Virus record (IMG/VR): IMGVR_UViG_3300046751_000183
Span: 1-37,541 of that record
DNA: 37,541 nucleotides
From: a virus
Direction: 5' to 3' (one strand)
Part shown: positions 7,307-37,541 of the stretch, piece after piece
Layout: each line of letters begins with the position of its first letter
Numbering within the stretch: position 1 is the first letter of the stretch
The notes under the pieces: model-generated
Database searches by the model: none
What the model saw: only the letters and a program-made list of their open reading frames with translations
What the model was told of the DNA's origin: nothing
Made by a program: the position numbers and the translations under genes

Positions 7307-8019
7307 TGAGAGACTTTAGACCAAGATTAAAAGGAAACAAGCTAAAGGCGTTTAAGAACTTAACTAAGAACGAAACTAGAGTTTTAGTTATTGGAGACTT
7401 ACACGAGCCTTTTTGTTTAGACTCGTACCTTAAACATTGTAAAGATGTTTATTCTAAATACAATTGTAATAGAGTTGTGTTTATTGGTGATGTTATAGAC
7501 AATCATTACTCAAGCTATCACGAAACTAATGCCGATGGCATGGGTGGTGGAGATGAACTGGACCTAGCGATAGACAGGATAGCTAGATGGTACAAAGCCT
7601 TTCCAAAGGCTGATGTTACTATCGGTAATCACGATAGGATAATATCTAGAAAAGCTCAGACCTCATCTATACCAAAGAGATGGGTGAGAGATTATTCGGA
7701 AGTTCTTAACACACCTAATTGGAACTTTATAGAAAGGCTAGTTATTGATGATGTTCAGTATATTCATGGAGAAGGTGGTACTGCTAGAACTAAATCTAAA
7801 GCAGATATGATGAGTACAGTTCAAGGGCATTTGCATACACAATGTTATACAGAGTGGTCTGTAGGTGCTAAGTTCAAAGTATTCGGAACACAAGTAGGTT
7901 GTGGTATAGACCACGAGAAATATGCCTTTGCATACGCTAAGGCAGGTAAGAAGCCAGCCATAGGGTGTGCTGTTGTTATTGGTGGGCATACTGTAATTAA
8001 TGCACTTATGAATTTATAA
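7306..8019 (+). CDS. Calcineurin-like metallophosphoesterase
   Basis: 237 residues with the full metal-binding set of this superfamily: GDLHE (about 28-32), GDVIDNH (about 61-67), GNHD (about 107-110), IHGEGG (about 153) and GHLH (about 174-177). These coordinate two metals and hydrolyse phosphoesters. Substrate unknown; phage relatives act on nucleotides, nucleic-acid ends or protein phosphates. It sits in a coupled run with overlapping starts and stops. Confidence 0.85.
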   Translation: MRDFRPRLKGNKLKAFKNLTKNETRVLVIGDLHEPFCLDSYLKHCKDVYSKYNCNRVVFIGDVIDNHYSSYHETNADGMGGGDELDLAIDRIARWYKAFPKADVTIGNHDRIISRKAQTSSIPKRWVRDYSEVLNTPNWNFIERLVIDDVQYIHGEGGTARTKSKADMMSTVQGHLHTQCYTEWSVGAKFKVFGTQVGCGIDHEKYAFAYAKAGKKPAIGCAVVIGGHTVINALMNL

Positions 8020-8363
8020 TGAATTACAATAACGATTTCAAATACGATTTAAAAGTTGGGCAAGTTAAAGAACAAGAACTTGCTAACATATTCTCAAGCA
8101 AAAAGATTGAGGTTAAGTATGACCTTATGGCTTCTGAGACAGGTAATGTGTTTATTGAGTATGAAAGCAGGGGCAAGGCTAGTGGTATAAGTACTAGTGA
8201 AGCAGATTACTACTGCTTTTGTATTAAACATACATTTCATTTGATACCTTCTGAATTGTTAAAACACAAATGCAGAAAGTATCTAGGAACAAACAGAGAC
8301 AAATTAGGTGGCGACAGCAATACCTCAAAAGGTATTCTGTTGCCTATTAATGAATTATTTTAA
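8019..8363 (+). CDS. PD-(D/E)XK nuclease-like protein
   Basis: 114 residues. The arrangement GQVKEQELANIF, then IEVKYDLMASETGNVFIEYESRGKASGI, then ADYYCF fits the small Hjc/PDDEXK fold: an early Glu, a strand with E-x-K (EVK), and a downstream strand with a further acidic residue. Likely a structure-specific endonuclease in recombination or host DNA degradation. Two junction-nuclease candidates (this and RusA) occur in one operon. Confidence 0.6.
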   Translation: MNYNNDFKYDLKVGQVKEQELANIFSSKKIEVKYDLMASETGNVFIEYESRGKASGISTSEADYYCFCIKHTFHLIPSELLKHKCRKYLGTNRDKLGGDSNTSKGILLPINELF

Positions 8364-8365
8364 AT

Positions 8366-8731
8366 ATGTGGACTATGAATGTAACACACGACATAATAAG
8401 CGGAACTGAATCAGCTTATGTAATAGAAAGAAAGAGTATGCCTGTATTTAGTGGTGTGCTTAAATACTTTCCAGATGCAATAAGAGAAGTATCTAAGACT
8501 TCTTGGGCTGGAAATCAACAACATCATCCAGACAAGCCTTTACATTGGGATAGGAGTAAATCTGGAGACGAATTAGACGCTTTAACACGTCATCTAATGG
8601 AATCTGGTACAATAGACACAGATGGGGTTAGACATAGTGCAAAAGTAGCTTGGAGAGCCTTAGCTAACCTGCAAAAAGAGCTAGAAGCTGATGGAGAAGC
8701 TCCTTTGAGTGAATATAACAAAAAAAATTAG
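8366..8731 (+). CDS. dATP/dGTP diphosphohydrolase-like protein (DUF5664 type)
   Basis: 121 residues. The block MPVFSGVLKYFPDAIREVSKTSWAG, then HWDRSKSGDELDALTRHLM, then HSAKVAWRALANL matches a phage family related to dATP/dGTP diphosphohydrolases with MazG-like metal-binding helices (Glu/Asp in SGDELDAL). It probably changes the dNTP pool. No PurZ-like gene is present, so base replacement is not implied. An alternative start lies 3 codons in. Confidence 0.6.
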   Translation: MWTMNVTHDIISGTESAYVIERKSMPVFSGVLKYFPDAIREVSKTSWAGNQQHHPDKPLHWDRSKSGDELDALTRHLMESGTIDTDGVRHSAKVAWRALANLQKELEADGEAPLSEYNKKN

Positions 8732-13660: not shown

Positions 13661-13662
13661 TT

Positions 13663-13842
13663 ATGAAAGCACAATTTGAAATTTTACAACTAATTCAAAG
13701 AGATGGCTACAACGTAGTAACTTGTGGTAATTGTGGGGATGTAGTGTTATTGGAAATAGATTACACTATTGAGGAAGTTCAATGCCCACATTGCAAAGAG
13801 ACTATGGAATACTGCGATATGCCAGATTTATACACACGATAA
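13663..13842 (+). CDS. Small zinc-ribbon protein (59 aa)
   Basis: Two CxxC knuckles, CGNC (21-24) and CPHC (41-44), 16 residues apart, form a typical zinc ribbon. The remainder is acidic and short. Such minimal zinc ribbons in phages often bind nucleic acid or RNA polymerase. It lies between two exact 22-bp direct repeats and 100 bp before a strong terminator. Confidence 0.65.
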   Translation: MKAQFEILQLIQRDGYNVVTCGNCGDVVLLEIDYTIEEVQCPHCKETMEYCDMPDLYTR

Positions 13843-13894
13843 TTAAAACAAATAAGATGGGACGAAGCCAAAACAATTATAATTGTAGGAAGAA

Positions 13895-13916
13895 AAATAA
13901 ATAACGGAATAAAAAT
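13895..13916 (+). repeat. 22-bp exact direct repeat, copy 2
   Basis: Identical to 13632-13653 but here outside any credible ORF, so it looks like a leftover of the 3' end of the 13460 gene. Confidence 0.75.
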
Positions 13917-13942
13917 AAAATAAATTTAGATTTTATATTAAG

Positions 13943-13970
13943 GGGGTGCAGTCATGCACCTCTTTTTTTT
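13943..13970 (+). terminator. Rho-independent terminator
   Basis: GGTGCA (13945-13950), loop GTCA, TGCACC (13955-13960), extended by a G-T and a G-C pair, then eight T. Closes the operon 12733-13842. Confidence 0.88.
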
Positions 13971-14037
13971 GTTTAATATAATGGGGGAGAATTTTTATAT
14001 ATGTTTAATATAATGGGGTGCGTTTAATATTATGGGG
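13971..14037 (+). repeat. Three GTTTAATATNATGGGG repeats
   Basis: Copies at 13971-13987, 14003-14018 and 14022-14037, all ending in GGGG and starting directly after the terminator U-tract. Start-to-start distances are 32 and 19 bp. No C-run partner is present here, so a role as DNA-binding sites fits better than an RNA hairpin. Confidence 0.8.
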
Positions 14038-14241
14038 TCACAAAAAAATATATCTTCTTTTTTGCTCTTGTTAAATCTAAAAAACAACCTTTGCAAATTC
14101 TAGCAAAAAAAATTAAATTAATGTTTGGATAATTAAAAATATTTTTGTATTCGTGCACACGTACATATATTTATACATTTATAATACTTTATTTAGAATC
14201 AATATAAATAACAATATTTTGCAAAAAAATTAATATTTTTG

Positions 14242-14271
14242 TTTGGTATTTAAAAAAAGGTTGTATATTTG
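14242..14271 (+). promoter_or_regulatory. Strong promoter (TTTG-N18-TATATTTG)
   Basis: TTTG at 14242-14245 and TATATTTG at 14264-14271, spacing 18 bp, a near-perfect Bacteroidota housekeeping promoter. The transcript would start near 14277 and lead into a short A-rich leader before 14309. Confidence 0.8.
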
Positions 14272-14308
14272 TAGAGAACAAAAACAAAAACAATTAAAAC
14301 AAAACATC

Positions 14309-14422
14309 ATGAAAACATTTAAAAAATTAGATTTACAAGTTAAAGCAATGTTAATTTTCACTTTAATTATTGGCTCATTATTCACGGTAATGGCATTAAC
14401 TCAGGGATTTAATTCTTTTTAA
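14309..14422 (+). CDS. Small single-TM membrane protein (37 aa)
   Basis: First ORF after the strongest promoter in the window. A basic N terminus (MKTFKKLDLQVK) precedes one hydrophobic helix (about 14-32, MLIFTLIIGSLFTVMALTQ), so N-in topology is expected. Candidates are superinfection exclusion or host membrane modulation; this rests only on size, topology and promoter position. Confidence 0.6.
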   Translation: MKTFKKLDLQVKAMLIFTLIIGSLFTVMALTQGFNSF

Positions 14423-14424
14423 TT

Positions 14425-14526
14425 ATGGAGAAATTAAATAAAAAGGAATTAATAAAACTAATCAAAACACAAAACAAAGACTTTATCAACTATTTAATTA
14501 AATTACAAAATGAAAAGACAAAATAA
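14425..14526 (+). CDS. Short basic ORF (33 aa)
   Basis: Starts 2 nt after the membrane peptide and overlaps the next start by 17 nt, so it fits the operon. Lys-rich amphipathic helix (KKELIKLIKTQNKDFINYLIKL). Function unknown. Confidence 0.45.
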   Translation: MEKLNKKELIKLIKTQNKDFINYLIKLQNEKTK

Positions 14527-15389: not shown

Positions 15390-15415
15390 ATTTAAACACA
15401 TATTAACAGACAAAG

Positions 15416-15441
15416 GAGGGTATTTTTTACCCTCTTTTTTT
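15416..15441 (+). terminator. Rho-independent terminator
   Basis: GAGGGTA (15416-15422), five-T loop, TACCCTC (15428-15434) and a T-run to 15441. Ends the 14309-15389 operon. Confidence 0.88.
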
Positions 15442-15460
15442 ATGCAATTATTTTAGTAAG

Positions 15461-15489
15461 TTGTTGATTTATAATATTTATTATGTTTG
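15461..15489 (+). promoter_or_regulatory. Promoter (TTG-N18-TATGTTTG) into non-coding DNA
   Basis: TTG at 15461-15463 and TATGTTTG at 15482-15489, spacing 18 bp. No ORF follows for some 600 nt, which suggests an RNA product or a long regulated leader. Confidence 0.65.
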
Positions 15490-15677
15490 TAGTTTGTGAC
15501 CGATTTTAAGCCCTTCTAAGAGCCTAATATCTTTTGCCTAGTATACAACTATTAACCTCAGCGTAAACACGCTTAAAACAGCCTTAAAATGTCTGTAATT
15601 AGCTGTATTTTAGTGCAATTAACGTAAATTGAAAGTATGGTGGGTTGAGTTATCCATTCCAATGATTTCAAACATAT

Positions 15678-15785
15678 GTTTAATATGATGGGGGTCAAAA
15701 CTCTTTTTGACTAAAACTGATTTATTGATTACAGAAATATATTTGGAAACAGTTCTATGTTTAATATGATGCCCCCCTTTTTTTA
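15678..15785 (+). repeat. Two GTTTAATATGATG repeats with hairpin and C-run
   Basis: Copies at 15678-15694 (ending GGGGG) and 15759-15777 (ending CCCCCC, then T-run). Between them, GTCAAAA (15694-15700)-CTCT-TTTTGAC (15705-15711) is a perfect hairpin. G-run and C-run could close a larger loop, giving a terminator-like fold. Confidence 0.7.
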
Positions 15786-15805
15786 TATCTTGTTATTTTA
15801 GATTT

Positions 15806-15975
15806 AGGTTGCTAGTCTAATGGTTAGCGTGTTACTCGTTAGGTTGAATACTACTTGGGCATCAGCGAAAACAACAAAGGATTAAGTAGTGCAATTTCTA
15901 AGGAGATTTAATTTACCTGAACCAACTATATCATCTATAGAAGTTTGGCAACTTAGGCAGATTTGCGACTGCTAC
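15806..15975 (+). ncRNA. Candidate structured RNA
   Basis: Consecutive stems: GCTA (15811-15814) with TAGC (15825-15828); ACTACTT (15850-15856) with AAGTAGT (15884-15890); AAGTT (15941-15945) with AACTT (15950-15954); GCAG (15957-15960) with CTGC (15969-15972). The segment is richer in GC than its surroundings and lacks an ORF. It might be an sRNA or 5' leader structure of the tail operon. Confidence 0.35.
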
Positions 15976-16083
15976 ATACTTATAACAAAAACCTATTAAT
16001 TTCATTTTAGGTATATAGATAAAAAGTATTAATACTTAAACAACTATAGATATTATTTATGATAAAATGATATTTATAAAATA

Positions 16084-16099
16084 TTGTTATAATACTATG
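16084..16099 (+). promoter_or_regulatory. Conserved start element TTGTTATAATACTATG
   Basis: Second copy of the shared start element; its ATG (16097) is the chosen start of the tail-chaperone gene, in preference to an in-frame ATG at 16067. Confidence 0.55.
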
Positions 16100-16822
16100 A
16101 GTAAAATAGATTTGACGATACCATTTAGTTTGGGGCAGATTACACTAGGACAGTATCAGGATTATTTAAAGATATTGGAGAAGTGGGATAAGGAAGATGA
16201 GACGTATCTTAAGTTAAAGATATTACAGATATTTTGTAATATGTCTGCTGAAGATGTGCAGAGGATTAAGTTGTCAGAGTTTGAAGATACTATTCAACAC
16301 ATAAACGACTTATTTAATGAGGACACTAGTAAGTTAATTAATAGATTTAAGATGACTGGTAGTGATGGACAAGGTGGAGAAAGGACTGTGGAGTTTGGTT
16401 TTATACCTAAACTAGATGATATATCATTTGGTGAGTATATTGACTTAGAGACTTATGTTGGTAAGTGGGAGTCTATGCATAAAGCTATGGCTGTATTGTT
16501 CAGACCTATTACTAAAGACAGTAAAGGGTATTATTTGATAGAAGATTATCAAGGTAGTGCTAAGTATAGCGAGGCTATGTTAGATATGCCAGTTAGTGTA
16601 GCTTTATCAGCTACGGTTTTTTTTTATCGTTTAGGAATAAAATTACAGAATTATACTCTGGACTCTTTAGCGAAGCAGATGTTGAAGGAGGGAGCTCAAC
16701 AAGCATCCAAGCTAACTTTGGGAAAAAGTGGGGTTGGTATCAATCAATACATACACTTGCTCAGGGAGATGTTAGACGAATTGACGAAATTACAAAAACC
16801 AGTCTTCATAAGTGCTTTATGA
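16097..16822 (+). CDS. Tail assembly chaperone (lambda gpG-like), frame-0 product
   Basis: 241 residues from the ATG at 16097; the upstream in-frame ATG (16067) would add ten residues outside the conserved start element. Helical protein without membrane or catalytic motifs. It begins the tail operon, the place of lambda gpG-type chaperones that coat the tape measure protein before tube assembly. The last 31 residues after the slippery site (SGVGINQYIHLLREML...) form one alternative end; a better conserved-looking end is in the -1 frame. A T9 run at 16617-16625 lies inside the gene. Confidence 0.6.
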   Translation: MSKIDLTIPFSLGQITLGQYQDYLKILEKWDKEDETYLKLKILQIFCNMSAEDVQRIKLSEFEDTIQHINDLFNEDTSKLINRFKMTGSDGQGGERTVEFGFIPKLDDISFGEYIDLETYVGKWESMHKAMAVLFRPITKDSKGYYLIEDYQGSAKYSEAMLDMPVSVALSATVFFYRLGIKLQNYTLDSLAKQMLKEGAQQASKLTLGKSGVGINQYIHLLREMLDELTKLQKPVFISAL

Positions 16823-16890
16823 TGCTAGAATATGAAAAAGATAAAAACAGAGTTGAGAATGCTCTAATTAAGAAATCAATGAAAAGATAA
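16097..16890 (+). CDS. Tail assembly chaperone extended by -1 frameshift (gpGT-like)
   Basis: Frame 0 to 16726, then the -1 frame to the TAA at 16888-16890, 264 residues. The slip site is G_GGA_AAA (16720-16726), the standard X_XXY_YYZ heptamer and one base from lambda's G_GGA_AAG. The -1 extension of 54 residues begins KWGWYQSIHTLAQGDV and runs through an aromatic and charged helical region to KKSMKR. The -1 frame is open from 16597 but has no ATG before 16820, so it needs a frameshift. A single-base sequencing error is the rival explanation. Confidence 0.65.
16720..16726 (+). promoter_or_regulatory. Programmed -1 frameshift site G_GGA_AAA
   Basis: In-frame codons are TTG GGA AAA AGT. Slippage of both tRNAs by one base re-pairs them on GGG and AAA, and reading resumes as AAG TGG GGT TGG TAT. 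A G-rich stretch follows directly. Located 97 nt before the frame-0 stop codon ends. Confidence 0.7.
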
Positions 16891-16891
16891 T

Positions 16892-17368
16892 ATGAACTTT
16901 TACGAATTAATAGACTTACTTAAACAACTAATAGAGGAGAATGATTTCACTAATAAAATTACATTTGGTGATATATCAGATGTAGACCTCAACAAAGACA
17001 CCACATTCCCATTATTACATATAATGCTAGATGAGGCTGTTATACAACAAAACACTATTGATTATAGAATAAATATTATCGCTGCTGATATAGTAGATGT
17101 GATTGACGAGAATTTAGGTGTAGATGACTTTTATGGAAACGACAATACTCAAGATATATTAAACACACAACTAAGAGTAGTTACTGAGCTTGTTAATGCA
17201 CTTAGAAAGCTAGATTTAGTAGCTTCTAAGTATTCTAGAGTAGAAGACGAAGCAACTGCAACTCCTTTTAGAGATAGATTTGAGAATGAGATTGCTGGGT
17301 GGGAAACAAGTATAACACTTAAGAAGTTCCAAGATGGAGGTTCATCTATTGGAGTAGGACCTTGCTAA
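16892..17368 (+). CDS. Putative tail terminator / tail completion protein
   Basis: 158 residues. Alpha/beta protein with the run TFPLLHIML, DYRINIIAADIVD, then a long helix (TQLRVVTELVNALRKL) and an ending FRDRFENEIAGWETSITL. Strand-helix order and location just after the tail chaperone fit a tail terminator, which caps the tube and binds the neck. Assigned by context and fold pattern, no catalytic motif. Stop overlaps the next start (TAATG). Confidence 0.5.
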   Translation: MNFYELIDLLKQLIEENDFTNKITFGDISDVDLNKDTTFPLLHIMLDEAVIQQNTIDYRINIIAADIVDVIDENLGVDDFYGNDNTQDILNTQLRVVTELVNALRKLDLVASKYSRVEDEATATPFRDRFENEIAGWETSITLKKFQDGGSSIGVGPC

Positions 17369-17850
17369 TGAGTTTTGAAGCAAACATACAGAATGCCTTA
17401 GACAAAATTGGTCAATACTATATTGTTGAATTAAAAAACGGTATACAGGCTTCTGGCAATGTTGCTTCTAAAGATTTATTAAATAGTATAAAGCCTAAAG
17501 TTTCTGCTGACGCTGTTACTATTACAGCTAATAGATACTTACAAGCTTTATCTGAAGGAAAGAAACATACATCTAAGAGACCTTCTCCAGAAATGGTAAG
17601 TAGTATTTCTAGGTGGATGAAGTTTAAAGGGTTGAAACCTAAAAGTGGTGGTCTTAGTGACATTAGTTATAAAAAAGCATCCTTTGCAATAGCAAAGAGA
17701 ATAAACAATAGTGGTTGGGCTGGAAGTAAAGTTATACAAAAAGCATTCTACGCTATAGAGAACAAAATAGATGAAGAGATTACAAATGCATTTAAGCAAA
17801 CAATAGATGAGATAATTCAAGAAATGAATCAAGAAATAAACAAAAAGTAA
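17368..17850 (+). CDS. HK97 gp10-like neck / tail completion protein
   Basis: 160 residues from the ATG at 17368 that overlaps the preceding stop; a TTG two codons earlier also opens the frame. Starts with a helix (FEANIQNALDKIGQYYIVELK), then SKDLLNSIKPKVSADAVTI, a mid segment with a Lys-rich turn, and KKASFAIAKRINNSGWAGSKVI, recalling gp10-type head-tail joining proteins. C-terminal helix is charged. Likely head-tail joining; moderate certainty. Confidence 0.5.
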   Translation: MSFEANIQNALDKIGQYYIVELKNGIQASGNVASKDLLNSIKPKVSADAVTITANRYLQALSEGKKHTSKRPSPEMVSSISRWMKFKGLKPKSGGLSDISYKKASFAIAKRINNSGWAGSKVIQKAFYAIENKIDEEITNAFKQTIDEIIQEMNQEINKK

Positions 17851-21554: not shown

Positions 21555-21695
21555 ATGGAATCATTAAAAGCACTAATAGACTTATTAAACGCTGATGACT
21601 TCTTAGTAGGAGACGAGGATATAGATATAGCAAAAGGCAAATACAAAAGACCAGAAAGCTGGAAAGAATTTAGAAACATACTAAAACGTAAATAA
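21555..21695 (+). CDS. Small ORF (46 aa) before the tape measure gene
   Basis: Begins 1 nt after the upstream stop and shares the A of its own stop with the tape measure start. Acidic front (LIDLLNADDFLVGDEDID) and basic back (KRPESWKEFRNILKRK). Length and position suggest a tail assembly factor. Function unknown; coupling makes it likely to be expressed. Confidence 0.6.
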   Translation: MESLKALIDLLNADDFLVGDEDIDIAKGKYKRPESWKEFRNILKRK

Positions 21696-23977
21696 TGGCA
21701 GAACAAAGTATAAATATTAAAATCAAAGTTGACAAGCAAGGTAACGTAGAGCTTAAGTCACTTGAAAAGGGTTTTGATAAAATAAAAATAACAGCAAAAC
21801 AGGCATCTCAAGCTGCAAAACAACTGGGTGTTGATATAAGCAAGATTCAGAGTTCTGGAAATATAAATGTAGCTGCAAATGACTTTAATAAGTTAGGTAA
21901 AGCTATGTCTGGGGCTTCTGCCGCAGCAGGTGGAGCTACAGCATCAGTTCTTGAAGTTGGTCGTGTTATATCAGATGCTCCTTATGGTATTCGAGGTGTT
22001 GCCAACAACTTACAGCAATTAGCATCTAACTTTGCGTTTATGGCTAAACAAGCTGGAGGGGCAGGTGCTGCATTAAAAGCTATGGGTTCTGCATTAATGG
22101 GTCCTCTTGGTATATTAATAGCTGTTCAAGCTGTTATTGCGGCTTTTGATTACTTCTCACAAAACATTCAAGAAACAAAAAATCAATTAGGGGAATTAGA
22201 GGCACAATCATTAACAGAAAACGTAGTTAAACTTCATTTGCTTAGAGAAGCTGTAAACGACAGTAATGTAGCATTAGAAGATAAGATTTTAGCTCTGCAA
22301 AAAGCAGGAACTGAATTTGAAGAACTTAATGGATTCATAGACAACGGTACAATAGCTTTAGACTCTTTCAACTCTAAAATATCGGAGATGATTACAACAA
22401 TGAAGGAAGTTGCTTTTGCTAAAGCTGTTCTTAAGGAAACTGAGGAAGTTATGCAAAATTTCGTCAAGACTGTTGTAAAGGGAGTAGACCCTACATTTAT
22501 GGAAAAGACTGCTGCTATATTTAATCCTACAGGACCTTCAGCTCAAATGATGGCAGGAGCAAGATTCGCAAAAGATATTAAGGAATTTGATGAGCAATAT
22601 ACTAAGCTTTATAATATGTTGCTTGCAAAACAAGACGATAAAGATGGAATAGTTCTAGAGCATTTATTTGGAGACTCTAAAAAATCAGGTTCTGGCACAA
22701 GAAATAGAATTCTTAAACAGCAACTACTAGATATGTCTAAGCTAATACTTGATAGCTATAAAAAACAAGAGATGATGCTTGAGGAAAACGAGCTCAAGAA
22801 AATGGACATAAGACAGCGTTATGAAAGAGATGATGTAAAGAGAAGAAGAGATATGTTCTTAGAACGTCAAAAGCAACGTTTTGATGATTTCATGAAAAGT
22901 GCTAAGACTGACAAGCAGAAAGCTCAAGCTAGAAAAGTATGGAATGATAGTCAAATACAAGCAGAAGAAGAGTATCAAGAGGCACTTACTGCTTTAGGTA
23001 TTAAGCAAACTGCTGAAAGACAAGTTAAGATGCTAGAGTTAGAGCGTAAGTTTGCGGAAGAACTAGTAAATCAAAGACTAGCAAGAATAAAAGCTGACGA
23101 AAGTAGATTAGCCTCACTTAGAGCTGGGACAGGAGCAGGAGCTTTAAACAGACCTATGAGTGCTGTAGGTGCTGAAGATATAGAGGGTCAAAACGAAATG
23201 GCTAGACAGAGAATGGCTGCTGAACAGGAAAACTTTGAGAATGACCTACAAAGAAAGATAGAAAACCTAACAAATGAGGGCTTTAGTCTATTGGAAGCAG
23301 AACAAATGGTTGCTGGAGAAAGGCACGCATTTCAGATGAGCCAAGCAGAGCAAGAGATAGAACTAGAGCGTAACAAGATTGAAGCTAAGAGAAATATAAA
23401 TATGGAGTATGTTTCTTGGGTACAGGGTCTAGGTAATATATTTAAAGGTATTGCTGGAGAAAATGAAGCTTTAGCTACAGCTGCTTTGGTTTTAGAAAAG
23501 GGCTCTGCTATAGCAGGTGTTATAATAAAAACACAAGCTGCTAATGCTCAGATTACAACAAATATGCTTCAAGAACAAGGTGCTTATTACGCCGCAGCTG
23601 CTGGTTATACATTAATGCAGAATTTACCTGCCGCTAAGTTAGCTAAAGCAAACGCTGTTACTGCTGGTGCTTTAGGCAAGAAAAGAATACTTAAAAATAA
23701 CATAGGTTCTGCCATATCTATTGCTAAAATCGCAGCAACTACATTACAATCTAGAGGTGGTGCTGGTGGCGGTGGTGGAGCAGGAGATGAAGGCGGCGGA
23801 AGAACCTTTGACTTTAATTTAGTAGGCTCTACAGGTCAAGACCAGTTAGCACAAACTGTTGGAGGTCAATTCGGTCAAGGTCCTGTTCAAGCATATGTAG
23901 TTAGTTCTCAAATCACGTCTCAACAGCAACTAGACAATATGATAGAGTCTGACGCTACATTTGGAGGAGAAGATTAG
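21695..23977 (+). CDS. Tape measure protein
   Basis: 760 residues. N-terminal KIKVDKQGNVELKSLEKGFDKI is usual for tape measures; then Ala/Gly-rich helices, a hydrophobic stretch (about 134-158, MGPLGILIAVQAVIAAFDYF), a long coiled-coil middle rich in Glu/Lys/Arg/Gln (about 330-600), a second hydrophobic Ala-rich region (about 620-680) and a Gly-rich tail. It sets tail length and enters the host envelope during injection. By the rule of about 0.15 nm per residue the tail would be around 110 nm; this is an estimate. Confidence 0.85.
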   Translation: MAEQSINIKIKVDKQGNVELKSLEKGFDKIKITAKQASQAAKQLGVDISKIQSSGNINVAANDFNKLGKAMSGASAAAGGATASVLEVGRVISDAPYGIRGVANNLQQLASNFAFMAKQAGGAGAALKAMGSALMGPLGILIAVQAVIAAFDYFSQNIQETKNQLGELEAQSLTENVVKLHLLREAVNDSNVALEDKILALQKAGTEFEELNGFIDNGTIALDSFNSKISEMITTMKEVAFAKAVLKETEEVMQNFVKTVVKGVDPTFMEKTAAIFNPTGPSAQMMAGARFAKDIKEFDEQYTKLYNMLLAKQDDKDGIVLEHLFGDSKKSGSGTRNRILKQQLLDMSKLILDSYKKQEMMLEENELKKMDIRQRYERDDVKRRRDMFLERQKQRFDDFMKSAKTDKQKAQARKVWNDSQIQAEEEYQEALTALGIKQTAERQVKMLELERKFAEELVNQRLARIKADESRLASLRAGTGAGALNRPMSAVGAEDIEGQNEMARQRMAAEQENFENDLQRKIENLTNEGFSLLEAEQMVAGERHAFQMSQAEQEIELERNKIEAKRNINMEYVSWVQGLGNIFKGIAGENEALATAALVLEKGSAIAGVIIKTQAANAQITTNMLQEQGAYYAAAAGYTLMQNLPAAKLAKANAVTAGALGKKRILKNNIGSAISIAKIAATTLQSRGGAGGGGGAGDEGGGRTFDFNLVGSTGQDQLAQTVGGQFGQGPVQAYVVSSQITSQQQLDNMIESDATFGGED

Positions 23978-31357: not shown

Positions 31358-31482
31358 TGAATAAAGACGTTAACATATACAAACCTAAAAAGGTTAATAT
31401 TATAAAATTAAAGAAGTATTTAGATAAAATAAAAAATACTGATAAGAGCAACAGGATGTTGCATGAAATTAAAAGAGGATGA
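31357..31482 (+). CDS. Small basic ORF (41 aa) linking connector and fibre genes
   Basis: Starts inside the TAATG junction of the connector stop and ends in an ATGA overlap with the fibre gene. Lys-rich (KPKKVNIIKLKKYLDKIKNTDK). The double coupling and lack of any gap argue for real translation, either as a tiny structural protein or a relay ORF. Confidence 0.55.
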   Translation: MNKDVNIYKPKKVNIIKLKKYLDKIKNTDKSNRMLHEIKRG

Positions 31483-32717
31483 TTAAACCAAAGTTAGCAT
31501 TAATACCAAGCGGATATAAGTCTGGAGAAGTATATTCTATATTACCTAATGATGGTAGTGGGGATTTTACTTTTGACAGAGCTAATGGTCTTTCTACAAG
31601 AGTCCGTAAAGATGGTCTTATAGAAGAGGTATCTAATGATACACCAAGATTAGATTGGTTAAATAGCGATTGTCCAGTTTTATTGTTAGAGAATGAAAGC
31701 ACAAACAGACTAACGTATTCAAGTGATTTTGATAACTGGAGTAAAGTAAATATAACAATTGCTTCTGATAGTCAAATATCTCCAAGTGGAGAATATAATG
31801 CAGACACTATAACAAGAAACTCTGCATTAAGTTCGTATGTTAGTAAGTCATTTTCTAAACCAACATCAAGTGAATTAGATATGACACTATCTGTTTTTGT
31901 TAAACAAAACGTTGGTGATTTCTTTGCTATGAGGAGTCAAGGCTTTTATCCATCAAGAGCAGATATTATATTTCAATTTAGTACAAAGACTTTTACAACA
32001 TCAGTATCTGGAACTAACTTTTCTTTAGATAGTACAAAATATGAAGATTATGGTAATGGTTGGTATCGTTTATCAGCTAAATTTAATACAGATGCTTACC
32101 CTACTTTAGCTTGTTTATTTTCAGCAAGAAGTTTAAGTGGTCAAGTAGATAGTACTGATTCGTCAAGCGATTCAAGTGCTTATGTATGGGGTGCGCAATG
32201 TGAGTTAGGCGATTTAAGTTCGTTTATTCCTACTACTACATCAACACAAACACGCTTTGTAGAATCTTGCACAGGTTCTACAGATGCTACTATATTTAAC
32301 GATTCAGAAGGTGTACTATATATGGAGATTCAAGCGTTATCAGATGATGCTACATATAGATTAATTAGTATTTCAGATGGCTCTAATAATAAAATAACTT
32401 TAGGGTATTCTAATCAAAATAATGCATTGATAGCACAAATAATTAGTGGTGGTTCTAATGAAGTAAATTTAGAGCCTATTAATGTAAGTGATATTACAGA
32501 TTTTAATAAAATTGCGTTTTCTTATAAAACTAATGATTGTAAAGTATATGTAAACGGAAGTTTAGTGGCAACAGATATAAATGCAACTATGCCAACTGGA
32601 TTGAATCAATTAAATTTTGATTATGCATATGCTCTTGATTTTTATGGCAGATGCAAAGATTTAAGATATTACGATACAGCATTAACAGATGCAGAATTAA
32701 CAGAATTAACAACATAA
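31479..32717 (+). CDS. Tail fibre / receptor-binding protein, paralogue A
   Basis: 412 residues. N-terminal adaptor with LALIPSGYKSGEVYSILPND and DFTFDRANGLSTRVRKDGLIEEV, then PRLDW and LLLENESTNRLTYSSDF, the phage module junction also seen in the other fibres. A beta-rich carbohydrate-binding-like domain follows (about 90-260), then a LamG-like C-terminal domain (about 270-412; SEGVLYMEIQALSDDATYR, KIAFSYKTNDCKVYVNG, DTALTDAELTELTT). Shortest complete fibre here. Starts in an ATGA overlap. Probably attaches at the tail tip. Confidence 0.7.
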   Translation: MIKPKLALIPSGYKSGEVYSILPNDGSGDFTFDRANGLSTRVRKDGLIEEVSNDTPRLDWLNSDCPVLLLENESTNRLTYSSDFDNWSKVNITIASDSQISPSGEYNADTITRNSALSSYVSKSFSKPTSSELDMTLSVFVKQNVGDFFAMRSQGFYPSRADIIFQFSTKTFTTSVSGTNFSLDSTKYEDYGNGWYRLSAKFNTDAYPTLACLFSARSLSGQVDSTDSSSDSSAYVWGAQCELGDLSSFIPTTTSTQTRFVESCTGSTDATIFNDSEGVLYMEIQALSDDATYRLISISDGSNNKITLGYSNQNNALIAQIISGGSNEVNLEPINVSDITDFNKIAFSYKTNDCKVYVNGSLVATDINATMPTGLNQLNFDYAYALDFYGRCKDLRYYDTALTDAELTELTT

Positions 32718-32718
32718 T

Positions 32719-35700
32719 ATGGCAAACGAAATATATCATAGAAGTAATTGGGGAAATGCAGTAAATGATAAATACTGGGCAGATGTTTACGAGAAATATT
32801 CTGCTACTAATAAAATGTATATACGTTCAGACTATTACGAGAATAGCAACGAAACAGACAAACTAATGGCTGATATATACCCAAAGCCAAGTATATTACT
32901 AACACCTACTGCATACGATAATGGCTCTTTACATAGTGTTAAGCCTGTTCAGTCTTTTGGTAGTGAATTGGTTACAAATGGAACGTTTGACACAAATAGT
33001 AATTGGATTTTATCTTCAGGGTCAAGTATTGCAAATGGTAAGTTAACTATAGACGCTTTAGATGGAAGTTATCAATACGCTAGACAAATTATTAACACAA
33101 TAGTAGGTAGTACTTATAAACTAGAATTTGACATAACTGAAATTAACAATACAGGAAAACTTCAGTTGATGTATGATGCTGTTGTTATTGGTGAAGTAGA
33201 TTATAATACTATAGGCACATATACATTAAATTTTAAATCTACTAATTCAAGTGGTACTCTAGAGATAAAAAGATTTTTTCCAAGTAATACAAACGTATCA
33301 ATAGACAACGTAAGCATAAAAGAAGTAATAGACGCAGACTTTGACTTTACAAGAGGCTCAAGTGCGACACGAGTAAACGAAAAAGGACTTATAGAAGATG
33401 TACAGATATTAAGTGGGAATTTAGTACAGAACGGAGATTTCTCACAAATAGGTAGCGAAGAAATTTCTAATGGCGATTTCTCACAAATAGGAAGTGAGTT
33501 AATTACAAATGGAGATTTTTCTAATAATGGTACAGGTTGGAACTTTCAACTTGGATGGACGTTTAGCAACAATCAAGCACATTTTGAAAATTTAGGTACA
33601 AGCAATAGAAATTTATGGCAAAGTCCACTTGTTAGTGGTAAATTTTATAAATTAACTTTTGAAATAACATCAATAACATCTGGTTATATAATAAACGCAA
33701 ATTCATCAATTACTGATGATACACAATTTTCAACAGTTGGTATTCATACTCAATATTTTAAAGCTGATAATGTAAATTTATATTTAAAAGCAAGTTCAGA
33801 TGCAAACCTATCTATAGACAACGTAAGCGTTAAAGAGGTTGGTCAAGATTGGAATTTTAATAATTGGAAATTAACAAATAACAATGTTTTATTAGTAGAC
33901 ACGAGTGGTTATGTGAATCAAGTTAATGTTTTTGTTGTAGGAAAAAATTACAAAATTTCTGTTGATGTTAAAGATTATACAAGTGGTGATTTAAGAATTG
34001 ATAGTAATGGTCAAAATTTGTTTACACCAAGTGGAAGCAATACTACCGCAACCATATTTATTTCTAATTTAGACAAAACAAATCTTTTGTTAGAAGGTAA
34101 TTTTAGAGGTACAATAACAAATATATCAGTCAAAGAGGTCGGACAGAATTGGACGTTTGGTACTGGTTGGAATATGGGTGATAGAGAAGCTGTTAGTGTA
34201 AACGGAGGTAATTATACTGATGGTCTTTTTCAAGATAATGTTTTTGAAAATGGTAAAAAATATAGATTAAGTTTTGATGTTACAGAAATAACTTCAGGTA
34301 CAGTTCAAGCAAGATTTCATACCGCAGACCCTATTTCAGCTACATCAGTAGGTAGTTATAGTGCTGAAGGTGTTGCTAATGGGACAAAGTTATATTTTTT
34401 AGGTTTTAGTACATTTAATGGTAAAGTAGACAACATATCAGCAATAGAAATAACAGAGGACACAGACTTACCAAGAATAAACTATACTAACTTTGATTAT
34501 GAAGATGTTTTAGGAGATGAGTTGGTAACAAATGGCTCGTTTAGTGATGATAGTGATTGGGTTTTGACAGGTGCTACAATTAATGGAGGAAAAGTAAACG
34601 TTAATTCATCAAGTCCTGTATATATAATTCAAAATAACGTTGCTACAGTTGGAAAACTATATAAGGTTGAATTAACTGTTAGTAATTATGTAGAAGGCGA
34701 TTTAAGATTAAGATACCCTTTTACAATATCAGAATCAGAATTTACAGGGAATGGAACTTATGTTTTTTATGGAACTGCTGAAGATGCAAGATTTGAATTG
34801 CAAGGAAGATTTAGCGGACAAACTTATAATTACTCAATAGATAACGTATCAGTTAAAGAATTTACAGAAAATGTAGTAGTACCTTATAGTGGTACTGGTA
34901 GTCTTTTACTTGAACCACAGAGAAGTAACTTATTATTGCAGTCAAATTCTTTTGATACTGGGTGGAATAAAGACGATATAACACTTACAAGCGCACAATC
35001 TGGTGTATATGGAAGTAATGATGCTTGGTTAATACAACAAAATACTAATTCATCAAGACATAATATTAATAAATCAGTAAGTTCAAGTGGAACACATACT
35101 TTTAGTATTTATGCTAAAGCAAAAGAATTACAATATATCCAAATCGCATCGGTTCAAACCGCAGATGAATATGCTAATTTTGATTTAAGTGATGGTAGTG
35201 TTGGAACTGTCGGCAGTAGATTTTTAGATGCAAAAGCAACAAGTGTTGGTAATGGTTGGTATCGTTTAAGTGTTTACACAAACAATGGTTCTAACTCTTT
35301 ATACATATCATTGATACAAAGCAAAACAGATGGATGGTTGCAATCATTTAGTGGTTCTAATTCAACAGATGGCTTATACATCCAACACGCACAAGTTGAA
35401 TCTAATTCTTATCCTACATCGATAATAGAAACAACAACATCACAAGTTACAAGATTAGCTGATGTATGCAACAATGCTGGTAGTAGTGATTTAATAAATT
35501 CAGAACAAGGAACACTATATGCAGAGGTAAGTGCTTTGGCTGATGATGGTACTAATAGATGTATTTCTTTGTCAGATGGTACTGTTGATGATAGAGTAAC
35601 TATTCTTTTTTCAACTTCTTCTAATAGAATAAGAGCAATAGTCAAGAGTAATGGCTCTACTTCTTTTGATAAAGAATATACTGTAACATCGACTTTAGAT

Positions 35701-35970
35701 TATCATAAAGTTGCAATAAAATACAAGGCTAATGATTTTGCTTTATGGATTGATGGAGTTGAAAGATTTATAGATACGAGTGGTTCTGCACCTATTGGAT
35801 TAAATCAATTAATGTTTGATGTTGGTAATGCAATTTTAAACTTTTACGGAAACACAAAATGCGTTGCAGTATTTGAAGCATTAGACAATGACCAATTAGA
35901 AAGACTAACAGGCGAGGGGTACGAATCATTCAACTTATTAGCACAAGCTAACAACTATACAATAATATAA
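32719..35970 (+). CDS. Large modular tail fibre protein, paralogue B
   Basis: 1083 residues. Unique N-terminal adaptor (1-75, YHRSNWGNAVNDKYWADVYEK). Then repeated CenC-like, carbohydrate-binding-type beta sandwiches of about 100-120 residues starting near 83, 259, 376, 476 and 599, most opening with xELVTNGxF or a W-rich variant and closing with IDNVSVKEV or a close variant. DFTRGSSATRVNEKGLIEDV sits after the first and LLLEPQRSNLL near 728. A LamG-like domain ends the protein (about 925-1070). Multiple sugar-binding modules imply polysaccharide or glycan adhesion. Confidence 0.75.
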   Translation: MANEIYHRSNWGNAVNDKYWADVYEKYSATNKMYIRSDYYENSNETDKLMADIYPKPSILLTPTAYDNGSLHSVKPVQSFGSELVTNGTFDTNSNWILSSGSSIANGKLTIDALDGSYQYARQIINTIVGSTYKLEFDITEINNTGKLQLMYDAVVIGEVDYNTIGTYTLNFKSTNSSGTLEIKRFFPSNTNVSIDNVSIKEVIDADFDFTRGSSATRVNEKGLIEDVQILSGNLVQNGDFSQIGSEEISNGDFSQIGSELITNGDFSNNGTGWNFQLGWTFSNNQAHFENLGTSNRNLWQSPLVSGKFYKLTFEITSITSGYIINANSSITDDTQFSTVGIHTQYFKADNVNLYLKASSDANLSIDNVSVKEVGQDWNFNNWKLTNNNVLLVDTSGYVNQVNVFVVGKNYKISVDVKDYTSGDLRIDSNGQNLFTPSGSNTTATIFISNLDKTNLLLEGNFRGTITNISVKEVGQNWTFGTGWNMGDREAVSVNGGNYTDGLFQDNVFENGKKYRLSFDVTEITSGTVQARFHTADPISATSVGSYSAEGVANGTKLYFLGFSTFNGKVDNISAIEITEDTDLPRINYTNFDYEDVLGDELVTNGSFSDDSDWVLTGATINGGKVNVNSSSPVYIIQNNVATVGKLYKVELTVSNYVEGDLRLRYPFTISESEFTGNGTYVFYGTAEDARFELQGRFSGQTYNYSIDNVSVKEFTENVVVPYSGTGSLLLEPQRSNLLLQSNSFDTGWNKDDITLTSAQSGVYGSNDAWLIQQNTNSSRHNINKSVSSSGTHTFSIYAKAKELQYIQIASVQTADEYANFDLSDGSVGTVGSRFLDAKATSVGNGWYRLSVYTNNGSNSLYISLIQSKTDGWLQSFSGSNSTDGLYIQHAQVESNSYPTSIIETTTSQVTRLADVCNNAGSSDLINSEQGTLYAEVSALADDGTNRCISLSDGTVDDRVTILFSTSSNRIRAIVKSNGSTSFDKEYTVTSTLDYHKVAIKYKANDFALWIDGVERFIDTSGSAPIGLNQLMFDVGNAILNFYGNTKCVAVFEALDNDQLERLTGEGYESFNLLAQANNYTII
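33436..33530 (+). repeat. 39-nt tandem repeat inside the fibre gene
   Basis: Three copies starting at 33436, 33475 and 33514, encoding GDFSQIGSEEISN, GDFSQIGSELITN and GDFSNNGTG. They lie exactly at a module junction and keep the frame (13 codons per unit). Confidence 0.75.
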
Positions 35971-35971
35971 T

Positions 35972-37541
35972 ATGGGAGTAAAATTAGGAAATGGTAAATG
36001 GGCAATAAAAGAAGATAAGCTATTAGCATATAACGATAATAGTGGTAGATTCTTTAATAAAGAGTTTGATTTCTCAAGAGGGTCAAGTGCTACTTATGTC
36101 GATAAAGATGGTTTAATTAAGACTGCTGGACTACAAGCAACTAATCTTGTAAACAACGGAGATTTTAGTGAACTTGGGTCAGAGCTGATTACTAACGGAA
36201 ACTTCGATACTGATAGTGATTGGAGTAATTTTGGCACACCTACAACATCAGAACAATCTACAGACAAAGCGTATCTTGGTAGTTATAGTTGGTATGTTGT
36301 AGCAACTGCTTTTAGACAAGGTATTTTTTCGCCAAATAATTTTAGTTTAGTTAATGGTAAAACATATAAAGCTTCACTATGGATATACGCAGTAGATGGT
36401 GCTGAAATTCTATCTGGAGTAACAAATTCAGATGCAACAGTTTTTACATCAAGAGCAGTAACGCAAGGACAATGGACTAATGTTGTATATTATTTTACTG
36501 CAAATGCAAGTTCTGCATCTTACATAAGTATTTTATCATCTTCTTCTACATTAGAATTTTATGTAGACAACATATCTGTTAAACAAGTAGACCCAAACGA
36601 TTATTGGACTTTAGGAACTGGATGGAGTTTTGGAGATGGTAAGGTGGTTTTTAGTGATACTGCAAATGGTGATATTAGAACATCAAGCAGTGTATTTACT
36701 GCAAATAGTAAATATAAAATTAATTTAACTGTTTCAGATTTAACAAGTGGAACAGCTTTTTTTGCTTTAGGAGATGGTGCATCATCTAATTTAGTTGGTT
36801 ATAATAATTACAGTAATGGAGATTATAGTTTTGAAATTACTGCACCAAACGGACAAGAATTAAGAATTTACGCAACTACATCAAGTAGTAGTTCATTTAG
36901 CATTACAAACATATCAATACAAGAAATACAAGCAGACACACCAAGAATAGACTTTAGTGATTCAGTTAAAGGTGCATTACTTTTAGAGCCAAGTTCTACT
37001 CAATTATTACAGTATTCAGAAGATTTTAGTGATAGTAGTTGGTTTTTGTATGGTACAATTCAAGCTAATAGTTCTTCATCTCCAGATGGTTTAACAAATG
37101 CAACTAAATTAACTCATACACATCAGACATATAATATGTTAAGAGTTTCTGTTGGTGGTTTGCGTGTTACATCTGTATTTGTTAAAAACATAGATGCTAA
37201 TAATTTTTATATTAGAAAAAGTGGAGGTGGTTATGCTTATTATAATTTTGATACAAAAACAGTTAATGATAATTCTTTAAAAGTAGAATATTTTTCAAAC
37301 GACTGGGTTAGACTATCTTTAGCAACAGACCAAGTTACATATAGACAATTTGGAATAGGACAAAGAGAAATTGATTCATCTGAAGTTGGAAATTCAGTTT
37401 ACGTTTGGGGCGCACAATTAGAAGAAAAATCCTTTAGCACTTCGTATATTCCTAATTACGGAGTTAGTGGTGGTGTTACTCGTTTAGCAGACGTATGTAA
37501 TAACTCTGGGTCAGCACAAGACTTTAATTCAGAAGAAGGTG
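35972..37541 (+). CDS. Tail fibre protein, paralogue C (3'-truncated by window)
   Basis: 523 codons are visible from the ATG 1 nt after the previous stop; the frame stays open to the edge. N terminus: MGVKLGNGKWAIKEDKLLAYND, then EFDFSRGSSATYVDKDGLIKTAGLQA, then CenC-like modules opening at ELITNGNFDTDSDW (about 70) and YWTLGTGWSFGDG (about 210). ITNISIQEIQADTPRIDFSDSVKGALLLEP follows, and the last part (AQLEEKSFSTSYIPN, TRLADVCNNSG) runs towards a LamG domain. Nearly identical DNA blocks also occur in the fibre fragment at 1-1028. Confidence 0.75.
   Translation, partial: MGVKLGNGKWAIKEDKLLAYNDNSGRFFNKEFDFSRGSSATYVDKDGLIKTAGLQATNLVNNGDFSELGSELITNGNFDTDSDWSNFGTPTTSEQSTDKAYLGSYSWYVVATAFRQGIFSPNNFSLVNGKTYKASLWIYAVDGAEILSGVTNSDATVFTSRAVTQGQWTNVVYYFTANASSASYISILSSSSTLEFYVDNISVKQVDPNDYWTLGTGWSFGDGKVVFSDTANGDIRTSSSVFTANSKYKINLTVSDLTSGTAFFALGDGASSNLVGYNNYSNGDYSFEITAPNGQELRIYATTSSSSSFSITNISIQEIQADTPRIDFSDSVKGALLLEPSSTQLLQYSEDFSDSSWFLYGTIQANSSSSPDGLTNATKLTHTHQTYNMLRVSVGGLRVTSVFVKNIDANNFYIRKSGGGYAYYNFDTKTVNDNSLKVEYFSNDWVRLSLATDQVTYRQFGIGQREIDSSEVGNSVYVWGAQLEEKSFSTSYIPNYGVSGGVTRLADVCNNSGSAQDFNSEEG
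36905..36990 (+). repeat. Fibre module-junction repeat, copy at right end
   Basis: Partner of 48-133; two mismatches in 86 bp. Confidence 0.75.
37406..37541 (+). repeat. Fibre repeat before the LamG domain, copy at right end
   Basis: Partner of 483-618; the window ends inside this block. Confidence 0.75.

Follow-up and report, generated by a model that had tools for sequence, protein, structure and literature searches.

Two-product tail chaperones are a classic and conserved example of ribosomal frameshifting in phages. In phage lambda, gpG and gpGT are made through a -1 ribosomal frameshift at G_GGA_AAG, and the G frame reportedly ends soon after this slip site; the E/E' gene of phage P2 is said to slip at T_TTT_TTG. 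That a tail chaperone can be produced in two forms is already known (lambda; PMC5009743). Two C-termini are likewise obtained from bacterial genes with transcriptional slippage that carry an uninterrupted run of at least nine A or T, with no conserved RNA stimulator, such as Shigella mxiE (T9) and spa13, Thermus dnaX (A9), and Citrobacter tssM (A11) (PMC5009743, PMC3711429, PMC4256274). Published work places bacterial transcriptional slippage at tracts of nine A or T (PMC5009743); for MxiE, the run is given as Tn with n>8 (cited in PMC3711429).

The gene analyzed here belongs to a 37,541-base virus record in IMG/VR, the whole of which is referred to as the window. It shares with lambda gpG/gpGT the production of two proteins with a common N-terminal part from one gene, the -1 direction of the frame change, an extension that ends beside the following gene, and a location among the morphogenesis genes of a tailed phage. 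It differs from lambda in its junction, which is a T-run of at least nine that is probably read through polymerase slip, and in a 0-frame tail of about 57 codons that is kept open. Further differences from lambda are that no sequence similarity between the family and known chaperone families was found, and that four genes separate it from the tape measure candidate. With mxiE, spa13, dnaX, and tssM, the gene has in common the long uninterrupted run, the lack of a conserved RNA stimulator, and the two C-termini. Unlike these genes, it belongs to a phage structural block, is conserved throughout a lineage, and has two downstream frames that both appear to be under selection.

The window gene and its relatives

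All parts of the gene lie on the plus strand. The 0 frame encodes a product of 241 aa (16097-16822), consisting of an N-terminal domain and an alternative 0-frame tail. Its start was placed at ATG 16097 and not at 16067, because the relatives, in a 42-row alignment, begin at 16097. The N-terminal domain (16097-16624) is common to both readings in 258 loci, reaches over 176 residues as far as the run's two Phe codons, and matches PHROG 32199 (unknown function) with an E of 1.4e-15. The T9 run, the slip site, occupies 16617-16625 and contains T_TTT_TTT in register at 16618-16624. An earlier note on this DNA described a -1 frame that is open between 16597 and 16887 and has no early start codon. 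Both points hold: the stop TAA follows at 16888-16890, and the first ATG comes about 202 nt past the start of the run. The -1 frame extension (16624-16890, with its coding residues at 16624-16887) consists of 88 residues plus the stop (LSFRNKITELYSGLF...KWGWYQSI...ALIKKSMKR) and is conserved in all loci. It abuts the next gene, another point on which the earlier note was accurate: the stop ends at 16890 and the next ATG is at 16892. From 16625 to 16822, the 0-frame tail (65 residues plus stop) lies over the -1 extension, forming a putative dual-coding overlap that is recognized by the openness of the 0 frame and by synonymous depletion.

Elsewhere in the window, the stretches 13661-14509 and 15390-16066 contain no listed ORF of at least 60 aa, and neither an Rfam family nor a tRNA was found in the window. 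Four large ORFs (3-1028, 31479-32717, 32719-35970, and 35972-37540) share a repeated C-terminal motif (LADVCNN...EQGTLYAEISALADDGTNR) and probably represent paralogous proteins of the tail-fibre or lectin-like type. Since the last of these ORFs runs off the end of the record and the first begins at its start, the record may correspond to a single circular genome that was cut within a motif-bearing gene.

An IMG/VR protein scan with the 0-frame product yielded 28 relatives (38-100% identity); in the GenBank phage collection, the Nonlabens (Persicivirga) phages P12024L and P12024S matched at 28% identity. Three further viral scans queried with the extension were added, together with one GTDB genome scan, whose matches were one Bacteroidetes MAG and Galbibacter pacificus CAA-3. 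This resulted in 258 loci with both domains, as defined by HMMs from which the run-encoded residues were excluded. Because the extension was the seed in three of the four viral scans, these could miss members that do not have it; the IMG/VR scan seeded with the 0-frame product returned no member without the extension. All 258 loci have an uninterrupted run of at least nine T (207 T9, 49 T10, 2 T12), and the extension that follows it is always in the -1 phase. Some of these loci are the same contig found twice, and clustering at 85% identity left 133 representatives, with T9 in 109, T10 in 23, T12 in one, and a run of 7 or 8 in none. Just one other run of at least nine T is present in the 759 kb of remaining coding sequence of the same loci. 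Judged from these sequences, a gene family common to many marine Bacteroidota phages gives two differently ended proteins from one gene.

In the Nonlabens phages, the homologue likewise has an in-register T9 followed by a -1 extension, but it is only 28% identical to the window gene and its 0-frame tail is short (about 25 aa). Their annotated gp40 and gp41 (P12024L, L001, JQ823123.1, 11995-12689) and gp38 and gp39 (P12024S, L260, JQ823122.1, 1237-1931) are listed as separate hypothetical proteins, although each pair represents the two halves of this frame-shifted gene. The cultured flavobacterium Galbibacter pacificus CAA-3 (L032, NZ_JAQSVC010000002.1, 7989-8719) carries the same gene with T9, with homologues of the protease and capsid genes of the window behind it, and this is possibly a prophage. 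A possible distant relative is gp10 of Flavobacterium phage 6H (L261, 10047-10927, minus strand), with a fold match of E 2.7e-4 and an hhalign probability of 57%. Behind 6H gp10 there is a -1-frame ORF of some 105 codons that has no annotation, but there is no T9 at the end of gp10. With a frame junction that looks different, 6H gp10 may use another kind of frame change.

Position of the frame change

The earlier note had proposed a lambda-like slip at G_GGA_AAA (16720-16726), leading to an extension of 54 residues, and had named the T9 run as a second candidate site. In the window, the heptamer does fit the 0 frame as X_XXY_YYZ, and it is also in register in L002 and L003, which alone among the first-scan relatives and P12024L/S carry it. 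It is, however, missing from L004-L029 and P12024L, and only 2 of the 133 representatives carry it in register. The T-run is at the same codon position in all of the first-scan relatives and P12024L/S. Conservation extends to the -1 reading just 3' of the run and 5' of the heptamer (FFLSFR-KI---Y--LF), and the fused reading can be aligned over its full length.

Upstream of T9, most pairwise substitutions are at 0-frame third positions, and from T9 on most are at -1-frame third positions, including the ~95 nt that precede G_GGA_AAA. Ordered by 0-frame positions 2, 3, and 1, substitutions between the window and L003 number 8/51/19 upstream of the run and 5/1/0 after it; between L003 and L004, 11/61/19 and 9/5/1; and between the window and L004, less clearly, 13/41/18 and 4/4/1. 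The codon phase has already flipped ~100 nt upstream of the heptamer, at the T-run. L027 and L117 carry a -1-frame stop immediately 5' of the run, and L106 has a 0 frame that stops 16 nt past the run, upstream of the position of the heptamer. Taken together, the -1-frame stops 5' of the run, the end of the 0 frame in L106, and the flip in phase place the slip within the run, and the extension therefore has 88 residues and not 54, as its conservation from the T-run onward also indicates. That the 0 and -1 frames are joined at the T-run is almost certain, whereas a slip at G_GGA_AAA is refuted by the comparison of relatives and retains practically no probability.

Alternatively, the -1 region could be an independently started gene, consistent with the GenBank annotation of P12024L gp41 as a separate CDS. 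Yet the conserved part starts at the run, 82 of 132 representatives lack any ATG, GTG, or TTG over the initial 45 codons of the extension, the extension of L020 has no start codon whatsoever, and the annotated start of gp41 lies inside the conserved domain and is not shared. An independently started gene is therefore highly improbable. Homopolymers are also liable to slippage at the DNA level as well as to sequencing and assembly errors, and poly-A/T phase variation has been discussed (PMC3711429). The 258 loci, however, derive from many metagenomes and two bacterial genomes and all show one -1 phase. Separately started homologues, which the earlier note had viewed as telling against a frameshift, were not found in the 258 loci, and neither were in-frame fused homologues or a +1 or other phase at T9, T10, or T12. 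The absence of in-frame fusions and of other phases is a strong argument against read error and phase variation, which are barely conceivable as the origin of this junction. The comparison of relatives thus establishes the change of frame, its location, direction, and conservation, and the retention of both frames. Of the programmed -1 frameshift that the earlier note envisaged, the frame change and the extended C-terminus stand in all 258 loci; a purely translational slip fits the conserved run of at least nine T less well than transcriptional slippage does.

Run length and the slipping machine

Every T9 holds an in-register T_TTT_TTN, and the register therefore cannot separate ribosome from polymerase, whereas run length can. 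Programmed -1 ribosomal frameshifting at T_TTT_TTT (16618-16624), with two tRNA-Phe shifting together, would give the same products with the same function. It is the mechanism of known two-product tail chaperones (PMC5009743), and the in-register heptamer TTTTTT[T/G/C] is present in 133/133 representatives. Seven T's would be enough for such a slip, yet the family has no run of 7 or 8. With positions numbered relative to the first codon past the run, the wobble base (-3) is T in 123 of the 133 representatives, with C and G in five each, despite TTC making up 22% of the Phe codons in the N part. The T's at -10 and -2 are partly explained by amino acid conservation, but the wobble base is not.

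Ribosomal slip also leaves unexplained that every loss at an edge of the run is compensated. The representatives that lost the 3' edge all (10/10) have T at both -11 and -12, compared to 1/123 of the others (Fisher p = 3e-14, which assumes independence of cases that are related), and a quick tree puts these losses in three separate places. In the same tree, the clade L027/L113/L117 shows the reverse, a loss of the 5' edge with T's added 3' of the run. The compensated shifts of the run amount to about four independent events, each of which kept at least nine T. The lineages with shifted runs retain the heptamer T_TTT_TT[TCG] even without the extra T's, and therefore the uninterrupted run of at least nine T, that is to say its length, appears to be the conserved feature that selection keeps.

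No conserved simple hairpin was found between -240 and +240 using 60-nt windows (mean folding z -0.5 to +0.3) with a model that excludes pseudoknots and SD-like motifs, and folding analysis revealed no downstream stimulatory structure. A terminator-like hairpin upstream of T9 in the window (GTAGC-tttatca-GCTAC) was dismissed, as it folds no better than shuffles and its structure is not conserved. Ribosomal stimulators are not obligatory for a programmed -1 ribosomal frameshift. The maintenance of at least nine T, combined with the lack of conserved RNA structure nearby, favors transcriptional slippage over ribosomal frameshifting. For Citrobacter tssM (A11), absent ribosomal stimulators were taken to indicate polymerase slip, which was later confirmed on RNA (PMC4256274). 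The E. coli polymerase is more prone to slip on poly-T (PMC6260861), the family described here being one of Bacteroidota phages.

We infer that the polymerase and not the ribosome slips at this run. This reading is moderately favored by the sequence comparison, and both machines could act together; ribosomal frameshifting as the explanation is possible but rather doubtful. The entire statement, that one gene gives two tail-assembly proteins via slip at T9 with the polymerase as the slipping machine, is fairly probable. RNA polymerase would slip on T9 (U9), leaving some of the transcripts with one extra U or with two U's fewer. Ribosomes translating these mRNAs in the normal way would enter the -1 frame and produce a 264-aa protein with a KWGWY-containing helical C-terminal domain, and unslipped mRNAs would produce the 241-aa protein, whose tail is different and partly helical.

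Two C-termini and a putative role in tail assembly

The 0 frame 3' of the run stays open over a median of 57 codons. It is open for at least 45 codons in 126 of 132 representatives, against 14 expected under synonymous recoding of the -1 frame, a null that drew on the pooled codon usage of the N part. Within the first 45 codons, there are 14 stops in the 0 frame (235 expected) and 578 in the third frame (680 expected). Synonymous differences in the -1 frame, at 70-80% identity, amount to 0.205 in the overlap, 0.324 past the 0-frame stop, and 0.435 in the N part. Conservation of the 0-frame tail is 0.362, versus 0.255 under recoding, and is slightly higher than under column-wise codon permutation (0.351, sd 0.0014). 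Six representatives have a 0-frame stop, versus 26 under this permutation. The overlap thus appears to be dual-coding and to specify two alternative C-termini, with the 0 frame under selection as well. The 0-frame tails of P12024L and of L188 (16 residues) are short, and the long dual-coding tail is therefore not universal but a trait of the larger branch. L188 and L189 are the nearest relatives of the P12024L form, with 56% identity in the extension.

The AlphaFold2 model of the 0-frame product has a mean pLDDT of 83 (about 93 over residues 11-170), and the extension is predicted to be all-helical (pLDDT 69), with a helix at its start. The slip point falls inside a long helix of the 0-frame product model (166-197), beyond which the 0-frame tail is a helix of low confidence. 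In the models, a helix may thus continue across the slip point in either frame. Searches of the PDB for folds resembling the models of the 0-frame product and the extension gave nothing significant, and no function was assigned by Pfam, PHROGs, or NCBIfam. Significant matches in BFVD are unnamed or uncharacterized phage proteins, and annotated tail assembly chaperones were reached there at E 0.13-0.34 only.

The gene order around it is conserved. Among the 133 representatives, the terminase large subunit is upstream in 103 and a 158-aa gene directly follows in 130, with homologues of the window genes at 17850 and 19340 further downstream in 112 and 101, respectively. The tape measure candidate (21695-23977 in the window) is not directly downstream but is the fifth gene, with four genes between; in this sense the distance of five genes given in the earlier note is right, and this spacing is a trait of the family. 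A tape measure candidate is seen at about +5 kb in 18 representatives, a number limited by contig ends. Adjacency of the chaperone to the tape measure gene is customary and not strictly defining. For a gene that has two products and lies among the morphogenesis genes of a tailed phage, the simplest role is that of a tail assembly chaperone, and we infer from architecture and synteny that this gene family probably has that role. The assignment made in the earlier note is accordingly plausible from layout and synteny, although it found no match to a family model or a solved structure. The 241-aa and 264-aa proteins probably act as a pair in tail assembly, similar to lambda gpG/gpGT.

Nothing on this gene family was found in the literature searched for frameshifts in flavobacterial phage tails. 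Within that literature, what is new is a lineage of Bacteroidota phages in which the junction is always a length-conserved T-run of at least nine, coupled to an alternative 0-frame tail that appears to be selected. It is conceivable, if tentative, that a large lineage of Bacteroidota phages sets the ratio of two tail-assembly proteins by programmed polymerase slippage in place of ribosomal frameshifting, with the overlap encoding two selected tails. If this is true, the short and the long product both have dedicated ends. As a case of overlapping code, a 0-frame tail kept open over about 57 codons is unusual. For annotation, split or truncated hypothetical ORFs in Bacteroidota phages, such as P12024L gp40/gp41, should be read as one gene. 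A T-run of at least nine throughout the lineage would shift the decision on the frame from the ribosome to the polymerase, an interchange that is known for dnaX.
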